From Hydra vulgaris (Eukaryota; Cnidaria; Hydrozoa; Anthoathecata; Hydridae), in the NCBI RefSeq assembly GCF_038396675.1, contig NC_088928.1, positions 10,693,501 to 10,757,500 on the forward strand: a stretch of 64,000 nucleotides of DNA, given 5' to 3'. Position numbers and translations under genes: made by a program. The notes beneath the pieces were generated by a model that saw nothing but the letters and a program-made list of their open reading frames with translations, had not been told where the DNA came from and searched no databases. Positions 54,222-61,297 of the stretch are shown here, one piece after another. Position 1 is the stretch's first letter; each line of letters opens with the position of its first letter.

Positions 54222-55718
54222 ATAGACCTTTTCATAAATAAATGTCCGCGTTTCAAATCGAGGCTTAGGTTGTACCGTTAGTAAACAAACAAAATATTTC
54301 ATTGCTTAAGAGCGACTTTCTGTAAGAACCAGACAAAGCTTAACAGTGACCCTCTTCAAAATTGCTAATTTTTTAATATGTTGTTGCTATTCATACTAGA
54401 AGCTCAATTCCAAAAAATTTTCAGAAAATATTGATTGGTTCTTTAGATATTAGATGTCAAAGTTTGACTTGAAGATTTTTCGAAATATTGACCAAATGGT
54501 GTTGAAGGCATGTTTAAACTCGAAAAAAACAAACAAAGTAAATACTTTACAATGAGTATTTCACTTGATTATTGTTTATTGGCTAGTTTAGACCAAAAAT
54601 TAATAAAATTGGTAAAGAAAATTTTTTTCCTTGACTAAATATCATGCTTTAAAATATGCAAAAAATGATTTTTTTGTCATTTTGGATCTTTGTTTTCATT
54701 CGAAGCCGCGAATATCCCTTAATTTTTTTTTGTTATTATAAATCTTTACCTAGTTAAGTACCTAAAAGCATAAAAACACCTGCGGAGAAGTAAAGGCTAT
54801 GCCGCAAAATCCAACTCAAAAACGAAATTATAATCTTTTGACGTATTGATTGTGACACGATTATGATTAAAGTCCTGAGTTCACTGTAAACTTTAATTTA
54901 AAAAACTTGTATTAACCTTTAATCTACCTTATTTATAAAAAATACCTATGGGGTATTGCAATAGTTCAGAAAAAATAACATATAAATAGTAAAGATATTT
55001 TCTAGGTGCTTCTATATTTATTTATAAGCACATGAATGCAGTATGTTTCTTTGTTACTCTATCATCTTTTTTGAGTATAATTTTTACTCCTATGTTTCCT
55101 GAGTATGATTTGGAGTATTATTATTTTATATTATAATAAACCTCTTCTGCGCATTTTTAGTTAGTTAAGATTTTTTACTTTTTTAAAAACATTTTGATTA
55201 AAAGTTTACAAAAAAAATGTTGACGTGACACGTGTTACAAAAAATGACATGTGTTGTTGTTTTGAACGGAATAATTGTGAAACTTACATGTGACCTATTC
55301 CAAATGTAGATGCAATGTTGGTGATGATGTTAAACTATAAATAGGAAACATCACAAAATATATGAAACACCTATTAATAGATGCACAACAGAAAAAGGTA
55401 AAGAATGATACATGTAAACGACTAGATAAAAAACAGCATTTTGTTTGAAAGACTATTCACAGAAGAAATTACCCGTGAAGTTTAGAGAGGGTTAGAAGGG
55501 CTACTTTGGAAAAAAAAGGCATAAGTATGCATATAAATGGTTTTTTTTTTCCCAAAAATGACATTCTCAAAAAGCATGTTTATCAAACAATTTTATATCG
55601 CTGCAATCAAGGTGTTTGCTCTGTTATCTCTATCGCGAAATCAGTTCTTAATTAGTTTCAACAAGATGAGCCAGAAATAGTAAATATTTTTGCAAATCGG
55701 ATGATGCTAACTATTTAA

Positions 55719-56360
55719 TTGAATCTATGTATAAACTCTGCAAAAATAAAAACTTCTACGTACGACTTTAATGAGCCTTGCTGTAGAACAGACCAATTCG
55801 ATAGGGAATGTGCATCCACTAAAACAATACTAAGAAGTTTCGTATATGCAAGCAATGACATAGTAATAGCAGTAGATGTTTCAAAAGCAATAAAATATGG
55901 TTATGGCGTCAAAAAGGGTGTGGTTAGTGTAGCAAAAATTGAGAATGTTTATTGTAAATTGAGAAAGATCTGAACAATCTTCTGTTTTAGATAAAGTAAA
56001 AAAAAGTTTATACTGAAAAGTTCAAAACAGCTTTGCAAGTTCATTCTAATTCTCCAACTGCATCAGTAAAGATCACGCCTACCTCCGATAAACAACATAT
56101 ACTCTCAAAAGCTCCATAAATTAGGTTGGGCATTGCCAATAAGAAAAAATTTTCGTTTTTCCATTAGACTGAATAAACTTCTTTATGAATACTTCATAAA
56201 TGGAGAAAATACAGGAAATAAGATGTCACCAGCAGATGTAAACACAGTGATAAGAAAATATCTTACAGCTAATGAGTTTGTTTCAAGCCAGGAAGTAAGA
56301 TCTTTGTTCTCTAGATGGAGAAGGCTATTATTGAATTGGAAAATTGACTGCTCCGACTAA
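55719..56360 (+). pseudogene. Unnamed protein with C-terminal GWAxPIRK module
   Basis: The first block (55,719-55,973) reads NEPCCRTDQFDRECASTKTI then LRSFVYASNDIVIAVDVSKA and IKYGYGVKKGVVSVAKIEN. The second (56,010-56,100) includes VHSNSPTASVKITPTSDKQH. The third (from 56,115) is LGWALPIRKNFRFSIRLNKL, LYEYFINGENTGNKMSPADV and LTANEFVSSQEVRSLFSRWR. The third block has the regular pattern GWA-RF-K-LxxxFxxGExTGxKxxPxxV-xxxxEFxxxxxVxxxFSR. It recurs in part at 48,195-48,449 and I believe in many cnidarian gene models, without a named domain. Two cysteines next to each other in the first block might be part of a zinc site. Blocks are in different frames, so the copy is dead. A role in the transposition of its TTAA element is only inferred from the two associations. 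Confidence 0.55.
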
Positions 56361-56549
56361 TGAAGAAGACAATAACAATGTAGTTGAAAATGAAGAAACC
56401 GAGAAATATCAAGAAGAAATACATAAACTTGCAACCAAACTTTCTTTTATATGGTTGAAAGATAATTGAGTGGTATTTGTTCACAAAAACCAATCGTATT
56501 CAGTTGTTGCAGAGGTATTTTGTGTATATTGTTAAACAAAAAACTTTTT

Positions 56550-56640
56550 TTTGGTTTAACAATATATACAAAATTTTCACATTATTTTAAAACATATACA
56601 AGATTTTGCATTTTTTTACATTTTTTAAAATATATGCACG
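56550..56640. repeat. Short tandem repeat next to the right arm
   Basis: Three imperfect copies of TATACAAGATTTTGCATTTT then TTACATTTTTTAAAA, the last running into the right arm. Confidence 0.75.
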
Positions 56641-56740
56641 ATTTTGCGGCTAAGCCTTTACTTCCCCGTAGGTGTTTTTATACTTTTAGGTACTTAACTC
56701 GGTAAAGATTTATAATAACAAAAAATAATTATAGGATATT

Positions 56741-56800
56741 TGCGGCTTCAAATGAAAACGAAGATCATTTGCGGCTTCAAATGAAAACAAAATTATCATT
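56741..56800. repeat. 28-bp tandem duplication in the right arm
   Basis: ATTTGCGGCTTCAAATGAAA is present twice. The left arm has it once (near 54,703), so the duplication happened after the arms formed. Confidence 0.85.
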
Positions 56801-56831
56801 TTTTGCATATTTTGAAGCATGATATATATAT

Positions 56832-59590: not shown

Positions 59591-59691
59591 CAGACAAAAT
59601 AATTGAAAAAATCAATAACAATTGAATTATTGAAGACAAATATTTTATTGAAATTTGCAGAATCTATTGAACAGTATATGCATTTAAAAAA

Positions 59692-59822
59692 TATCTATAT
59701 CTATCTATCTATCTATCTATCTATCTATCTATCTATATATATATATATATATATATATATATATATATATATATATATATATATATATATATATATATAT
59801 ATATATATATATATATATATAT
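59692..59822. repeat. (TATC)n then (TA)n microsatellite
   Basis: About nine TATC units followed by about 45 TA units. It lies at the 3' side of the minus-strand LINE fragment and may derive from its tail. Confidence 0.95.
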
Positions 59823-60300
59823 AGCGCTATGATGTAACACTGATTTAGAGATTGATGGCGGATTTGAGATTTCACGAAATGGTGTTATATTCGCTAATTT
59901 CCATTGATCAGGGAAGTAACTGTTTTCTACGAGGTGGTTAAACTGGATATTGAGTCATGGGGAAATTTCTAAGCGAGCAGATTTGAGTAAAATTGGGGAG
60001 AGATCGTCCGATGATCCTGTCTTTAGTTTGCTGAGTTGTTTGAAAATGTTATTAATGATAAAAGTGGAGGTAGTAGGTAGGTCTGCTTGACGGTTGATGA
60101 AGAACGAGAGTTTAGGTTGTTTCTTATCGCTCCAAATATTTTGAAGATAAAATGAGTGATTTGTCTTTTATTGACAAGCCCGACTTCTCGCCAAAAATTC
60201 GTTTTATCGAAGGAGAAGCATCGGTTATAAATACGTTTTCTTTCGGTGATTAGTTTGGTGACTCGATTTGTAAATAATTTCCACTCTGCATTTAACATTG
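59823..60300 (-). pseudogene. LINE fragment (linker and RT start) inserted in the transposase gene
   Basis: Minus strand from about 60,298: WKLFTNRVTKLITERKRIYN and FDKTNFWREVGLVNKRQ (linker), LPPLLSLITFSNNSAN, then SKLKTGSSDDLSPILLKSAR (RT start, LKxGxSxDxLxPxLLK) and NSYFPDQWKLANITPF (PDxWKLAxVTPxFK). Motif A and everything after are missing and the (TA)n tract follows. It belongs to a LINE type not otherwise present here. Its junction with the THAP transposase lies just after the KFPN codons of that gene. Confidence 0.65.
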
Positions 60301-60304
60301 GGAA

Positions 60305-61185
60305 ATTTATCCTTCATTGACTGAGGCATATTTTGTTTTATTTGAGTTAACGTTGGCCATATGCTAAGGCTTAAGCTTTATGCCATAAAGTTCAACCATG
60401 TTATAACTTTTACTTACAGTTCCTTCACATACTGAAAAAGGAAATGTTGAATCCCAATTATTATAATTTCTTCTTAATTGCACTAAAATTAATAAATATG
60501 CTTCTAATGGTAACAGAATTCGATTTCTCCTCCCATTTCCACTTTCTTGCGAATGCTTACTATTGTATAAGATAAGGTTTTCTCAATTTTCTCCAGGGTC
60601 AAGATATATAAAAACTACATCAAATGTTTTTCGATTCGGAAGTCCTGTGTAATGTTTTAATTCTTTTTCAAATGATAGAACATGCTCAACAAATTTATTT
60701 CCTTCATTAGGTATTGCTTCTTTTATTTTCTTATTTTCATTTTGCGACTGCTTCATTTTTAGTTTGCTCGAAAGGAGTGATTCTCTATTTGAGCTTTTAC
60801 TTGTTTTGTTAACAACATCATTGTCAGACAAAACTATGCTTTTATGAGGAGATTGTCTCTAACCAGATGGTTTTCTTTCTTTTTCACTAGCTTTGAAATT
60901 ATTCCAGCTATGAAGTAATGGTTTAGCACCTTTCCTTAAAGTGACTCTAGTACCTCCTAGCAGCTCCTAAAATGTCCCGCGATTTAAAATGAGAGTAACA
61001 TAAATATGATGAGTTAATAACATTAAAACTATCTAAACCATTTTTACGCTTTATCAAGTTGCACCAAAGAGAAATTTTATTTTTTTCTTTCGGAAAATGA
61101 AAGAATTTAATGTCAGAAGCTTTTCATTCTCCAAATTTGATAATATAGATTCGATTGAAACAATTATAAGCAGCATATTGTTTGC
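60305..61185 (-). pseudogene. THAP-domain transposase of the ISL2EU-like element, 5' part
   Basis: Minus strand. Near 61,180-60,990 the frames read GKQYAAYNCFNR, then DIKFFHFPKEKNKISLWCNL, IKRKNG and SSYLCYSHFKSRDI, a C2CH THAP zinc finger (Cys pair, FHFP, W, CxxHF) that would bind the transposon ends. VTLRKGAKPLLHSWNNF and the 82-codon frame at 60,831-60,583 (a basic linker with a coiled-coil part and KELKHYTGLPNRKTFDVVFI) follow. Then come PLEAYLLILVQLRRNYNN and LSIWPTLTQIKQNMPQSMKD near 60,490-60,310. The LPxxExLxxxLxxLRxN and WPTxxxIxxxMPxxxKxxFP blocks are the HTH preceding the DDE domain of this family. The DDE domain itself is missing, cut off at the LINE fragment. Confidence 0.75.
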
Positions 61186-61297
61186 CAGATGATTTTCTTA
61201 TAGGTTTTTAATTAAAAGCTATTTGGTTTGTTTACAAACGGTACAACCTAAGCCTCGCTTTGGAATTATGCTGACGTTTATTTATGAAAAGGTCTAT

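Follow-up and report, generated by a model that had tools for sequence, protein, structure and literature searches.

A decayed, very probable ISL2EU transposon copy with broken THAP transposase and YqaJ nuclease genes in a LINE-like sequence of Hydra vulgaris

ISL2EU transposons, members of the PHIS superfamily, have been described in a survey (PMC4482050) that reports 25 families in 14 animal species, each with an AT target duplication within A|AT|T, and with terminal inverted repeats (TIRs) of 6-259 bp that usually start with GG. (Except where a main text is named, articles cited by PMC number are represented here by parts of their text.) The transposase in that survey carries THAP, HTH and DDE domains, and most autonomous candidates also encode a YqaJ exonuclease domain in a second gene; the same gene content, transposase plus YqaJ, is given in PMC9179366. 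Thus, the pairing of these two genes is already published and is not new. Here we describe positions 54224-61295 of a 64,000-nucleotide stretch of Hydra vulgaris DNA from contig NC_088928.1 (the window), which very probably represent a cut-and-paste transposon of the ISL2EU group in decayed, non-autonomous form, lying at an AT in the 3' end of a sequence resembling a long interspersed nuclear element (LINE). An earlier reading of the letters alone (the sequence-only reading) had already named the element ISL2EU-like, and its ends, AT flanks, THAP domain and YqaJ domain do match the published description. Repbase is said to hold Hydra ISL2EU families. The word ISL2EU is absent from the main text of a report on Hydra repeats (PMC12220107).

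The element shares with the families of PMC4482050 the AT duplication, a TIR length within the published range, a THAP/HTH-type transposase and a YqaJ protein encoded by two genes, and an animal host. After removal of a nested element and one TTAA it measures approximately 4.0 kb, compared with the published mean of 4.84 kb. It differs in having no DDE domain and in that both of its genes are broken. These three features, namely the missing domain, the nested element of about 3 kb and the damage to both genes, go beyond the sequence-only reading. The copy is therefore classed as a truncated ISL2EU descendant rather than a functional member, and the locus itself is a case of ordinary transposon decay. 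Two other groups are relevant for comparison. Spy elements (PMC11304231) form the sister clade to ISL2EU by transposase and likewise have an AT-rich target, but in the parts available they possess a single gene, make no duplication and use the target AAWTT. KolobokE (PMC9587614) also combines a DDE transposon with a lambda-exonuclease-like nuclease, but there the transposase domain is followed by the nuclease downstream, and the lineage belongs to another superfamily.

The ends of the element and the interrupted target are as follows.
53992-54223, plus strand: LINE-like target reading frame left of the insertion
54222-54223: left target-site duplication, AT
54224-54300, plus strand: left TIR, starting AGACCTTTTCATAAATAAA, as aligned to the right end
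61219-61295, minus strand: right TIR, as aligned to the left end
61296-61297: right target-site duplication, AT
61297-61422, plus strand: the same target frame continued up to its stop codon

The boundaries proposed in the sequence-only reading are well supported. The element spans 7072 bp and has the same 19 bases at both ends in opposite orientation, with exact AGACCTTTTCATAAATAAA at 54224 (plus strand) and 61295 (minus strand). Across the 64-kb window no other site carries this sequence with three or fewer mismatches, and two additional sites appear when four are allowed. The inverted arms are alignable over approximately 75-78 bp (87% identity across 78 bp with the AT counted), with an alignment score of 51; when 2000 random pairs of 77-bp stretches from the window were aligned, the highest score was 19. 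Since AT is its own reverse complement, a duplicated AT and ends that read ATAGACC...GGTCTAT without duplication are inseparable on the basis of the ends alone. This ambiguity leaves room for an element of the Spy or PIF/Harbinger type, in which the AT would belong to the ends and no duplication would be made.

The reading frame of the target provides further information. Excising 7074 bases (the element plus one AT) restores the frame, giving ...QTANLGNALTLEVVNSTSVSNFKN, whereas a 7072-base excision (TA duplication) or a 7076-base excision (no duplication) produces a frameshift. On the left, the frame at 53992-54222 has 77 codons with 2 stops, compared with 7 and 3 stops in the alternative frames; on the right, 61297-61419 has 41 codons and no stops, compared with 5 and 2. 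With AT present on both flanks, the frame test thus favours the AT duplication that had been proposed from the letters. However, the same reading regarded the rejoined frame as independent proof of the boundaries, which is too strong a claim. The frames do join, but agreement by accident has a chance of 1 in 3, so the result counts as support and falls short of proof, and a search for relatives of the joined peptide gave no hits (two candidates scored). A Spy or PIF/Harbinger identity is scarcely credible given that the zero-duplication and TA models disrupt the frame, and that Spy has one gene and PIF/Harbinger a Myb-like second gene in the parts of the sources available, whereas the window carries THAP and YqaJ. 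More generally, when the duplicated bases are self-complementary, a 2-bp duplication can be told from none by the frame in which the interrupted target is read.

We take the target to be a probable LINE on the basis of its motifs and of an upstream Pfam match to Exo_endo_phos_2 that falls below the cutoff (52495-52851, expectation value (E) 0.0026). The target sequence is itself decayed and older than the insertion. A Pfam match of the joined peptide to Not3 (E 0.00051; 19.9 bits against a cutoff of 25.8) is taken as chance.

Two features define the transposase end of the element.
60288-61213, minus strand: broken transposase, with the THAP part at 60959-61213 and a linker and HTH region at 60406-60957 and on (tblastn with P0016 and P0017; Pfam)
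59684-60287: replacement block at the DDE position, comprising a microsatellite and a minus-strand LINE-like fragment; left edge approximate

Scoring of 278 candidates yielded two transposase relatives, one with 9 member sequences (P0016) and one with 3 (P0017), the latter being Hydra vulgaris LOC124818814 by name, with 73% identity over 95% of the query. P0016 is intact (485 amino acids), and its Pfam layout comprises THAP at 16-104, HTH_Tnp_4 at 242-285 and DDE_Tnp_4 at 315-476 (E 9.4e-43). In tblastn comparisons, residues 4-88 of P0016 correspond to 61213-60959 (80% identity), residues 89-272 to 60957-60406 (77%) and residues 273-318 to 60407-60273 (78%), and there are five stops across these three pieces. 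The final identical residue is C313 (codon 60288-60290), with none of residues 314-318 identical. Given that homology stops at 313 and DDE_Tnp_4 begins at 315, the window copy is without the catalytic domain. The THAP domain of the window is recognised by Pfam (E 1.6e-9, with X placed at a stop), and the HTH region, which has no Pfam hit of its own, is known through alignment to residues 242-285 of P0016. Thus, the minus-strand THAP transposase of the sequence-only reading survives as THAP and HTH remnants, not as a complete gene.

Within the replacement block, a (TATC)n(TA)n microsatellite occupies approximately 59690-59824. The minus-strand fragment beside it may be LINE-like, although it has no Pfam support, and elsewhere in the window it has a single weak counterpart (E 0.006). 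The block begins exactly where the DDE domain should, and several bases could be common to both junction sequences. The loss of the domain may not be specific to this copy, but instead may be common to an entire subfamily of non-autonomous elements that multiplied after losing it. The position of the junction just before the catalytic domain would agree with such a history, but both relatives found, P0016 and P0017, possess the DDE domain (precomputed Pfam, and for P0016 also our own scan), and we judge a subfamily-wide loss to be unlikely.

The second gene comprises the following features.
57618-59625, plus strand: broken nuclease gene with a CxC..CxH remnant and a lambda-exonuclease/YqaJ domain, interrupted by stops and frameshifts; ends approximate (tblastn with P0002, P0001 and distant relatives; Pfam)
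58089-58161: inverted duplication of 73 bp inside the nuclease gene, with 32-bp perfect arms and a 9-bp loop; not in P0002
59128-59582, plus strand: YqaJ/lambda-exonuclease domain, main part

The plus-strand YqaJ nuclease noted previously is borne out, albeit as a broken gene. Pfam detects the domain with E 3.1e-5 in the open piece alone and E 2.4e-7 in a typed read-through, and the active-site codons are kept (D 59269-59271, E 59308-59310, K 59314-59316). Eight tblastn pieces align to P0002 or P0001 across 57600-59582, six of them at 71-86% identity and the other two at 45% and 55%, in part out of frame. Stops per piece, from left to right, number 2, 1, 1, 2, 0 and 0, and there are several frame changes. 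The inverted duplication contributes 21 residues that are missing from P0002. A search for homologues with the typed read-through found 15 among the best 7996 candidates, and from these relatives we prepared two alignments, A1 (11 sequences) and A3 (14 sequences). A CxCx7CxH motif is present in all five of the relatives that align over the whole region (P0002-P0006); P0009 has residues there and the motif is absent. We presume this motif to be SWIM-like. The SWIM domain claimed by the sequence-only reading corresponds to this pattern in the relatives; Pfam scans give no SWIM hit, and in the window copy the second Cys is replaced by Tyr.

Characteristics of the relatives point to a lambda-exonuclease fold with a D-ExK active site, from which nuclease activity is predicted. 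In A3, residues G234, P237, E251 and K253 are invariant and D238 and Q295 nearly so (P0001 numbering), with P0006 carrying Y instead of the active-site D. The A1 profile matches LHK-Exo (1.6e-18), lambda exonuclease (3.2e-5), Mimivirus R354 (1.8e-4) and the ORF37 protein of Kaposi's sarcoma-associated herpesvirus (0.0039), and its alignment superposes D, E and K on the active-site residues of lambda exonuclease. These residues are presumably D119, E129 and K131, with a chain offset of two residues. Structure entry 3sm4 carries the title of a K131A mutant. The predicted fold of P0001 (mean predicted local distance difference test score (pLDDT) 83, predicted template modelling (TM) score 0.78) has LHK-Exo as its top match (E 7.2e-9; TM 0.71 by target and 0.41 by query), followed by lambda exonuclease. 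Among viral predictions, the alkaline exonuclease of a baculovirus and a YqaJ protein of a Pandoravirus match best. Scans of viral contigs gave 2, 9, 27 and 0 pattern matches, none of which was confirmed. A poor model of P0003 (8 alignment rows, pLDDT 42.8) was not used. The likeness to the family of lambda exonuclease, LHK-Exo and SXT-Exo includes the profile and predicted fold of the relatives and the active-site D, E and K, whereas the window-type nuclease differs in having a long N-terminal part with CxC..CxH. The profile and Pfam analyses lead to LHK-Exo and lambda exonuclease for the nuclease, and to a THAP, HTH and DDE architecture for the intact transposase P0016.

How such a nuclease could serve a transposon can be outlined as follows. 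The THAP-DDE transposase would bind the inverted ends, cut the element out and insert it elsewhere, and the element-encoded lambda-type nuclease might resect 5' strands at the DNA ends left by excision. Resection would favour filling of the donor gap by homologous repair, and hence copy gain. We consider the sequence from resection through homologous donor repair to copy gain to be nearly an even call, leaning slightly to the doubtful side. A broader proposal, that ISL2EU itself supplies an enzyme for end resection, whereby an element-bearing copy serves to repair the gap and cut-and-paste movement leads to copy gain, with the patchwork seen here as the scar of a failed repair, is considerably more doubtful. 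Faulty gap repair could account for the replacement block at the position of the lost DDE domain, but a later deletion and insertion explains it equally well. If the resection idea is true, this would be a eukaryotic transposon that directs the repair of its own donor site, and the intact Hydra-type relatives identified here provide material for asking how a DDE transposon makes use of a lambda-type exonuclease.

Alternatively, the nuclease may act like TnsA of Tn7, in which case it would cut the second (5') strand at the ends of the element, and the DDE transposase the 3' strand. TnsA and the ISL2EU nuclease both have a restriction fold and both reside beside a DDE-type transposase. Cutting of 5' strands by TnsA is described for Tn7-like elements (PMC8188705). 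However, fold comparison ranks lambda-type exonucleases highest, with TnsA unnamed in the best 50 of 235 matches. SXT-Exo, which belongs to that family, digests in the 5'-3' direction and, in the available part of PMC3118119, has no detectable endonuclease or nicking activity. Furthermore, Spy does not need a second protein, as two of five tested elements transposed in HeLa cells by transposase alone (PMC11304231). On this evidence we hold a TnsA-like role to be decidedly improbable.

The experience with Spy also bears on the possibility that the nuclease is an accessory gene that acts outside the transposition steps, either against host silencing, against rival DNA, or in regulation via CxC..CxH. 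The sister group manages without a nuclease (PMC11304231), and assorted accessory nucleases occur in Kolobok lineages (PMC9587614). Nevertheless, the presence of the pairing in most autonomous ISL2EU candidates (PMC4482050) suggests a close functional link, and we are inclined to doubt a purely accessory role.

Several observations weigh against our interpretation of the element as ISL2EU and of its nuclease as a resection enzyme. The target context at this single site is C|AT|T, whose 3' T fits A|AT|T but whose 5' flank is C instead of the published A, and the TIR of approximately 75 bp starts with AG rather than the usual GG (PMC4482050). A 20-base shared TIR core had no matches in the genome contigs, and a pattern scan of these contigs with P0001 gave 63 pattern matches, none confirmed; these two scans thus revealed no second DNA-level copy, empty site or intact family member. 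The window nuclease domain alone, compared with solved structures, matches only LHK-Exo, with E 0.059. We noticed no gene for an annealing-protein partner within the element, where no search was aimed at one. Finally, no tested role for an ISL2EU nuclease is announced among the literature matches listed, as far as their available parts extend.

The remaining feature of the element is the nested insertion.
54306-57356: nested element with inverted ends of approximately 500 bp and TTAA at 54306-54309 and 57353-57356; foreign to the ISL2EU element

This insertion of about 3 kb lies near the left end of the ISL2EU copy, and its arm blocks (88% and 84%) are separated by approximately 1.8 kb. Kolobok and piggyBac typically duplicate TTAA. 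Two small open reading frames, at 55719-55973 and 56070-56360, have no Pfam match. The right arm contains an insert of approximately 190 bp (56829-57018) that resembles a short interspersed nuclear element; an Rfam scan of 53000-62500 and a tRNA scan of 56600-57300 found no match, this insert included. Another element, diverged and likewise with long arms in inverted orientation, is located at 47801-49060. Its left end, TTAAGAGTCA..., is like that of the nested element, and a peptide encoded at 48348-48612 is related to that of the nested element (E 3.4e-4).

We also observed perfect short-loop inverted duplications in the window (arms of at least 15, loops of up to 80, guanine-cytosine content of at least 25%), which amount to 11 hairpins in seven places: 717-781, 38054-38127, 39924-39988, 49257-49418, 52266-52303, 53763-53807 and 58089-58161. 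None occurred in any of 10 sequences simulated from the dinucleotides of the window. Two of these hairpins lie inside decayed transposon genes and look like template-switch insertions.

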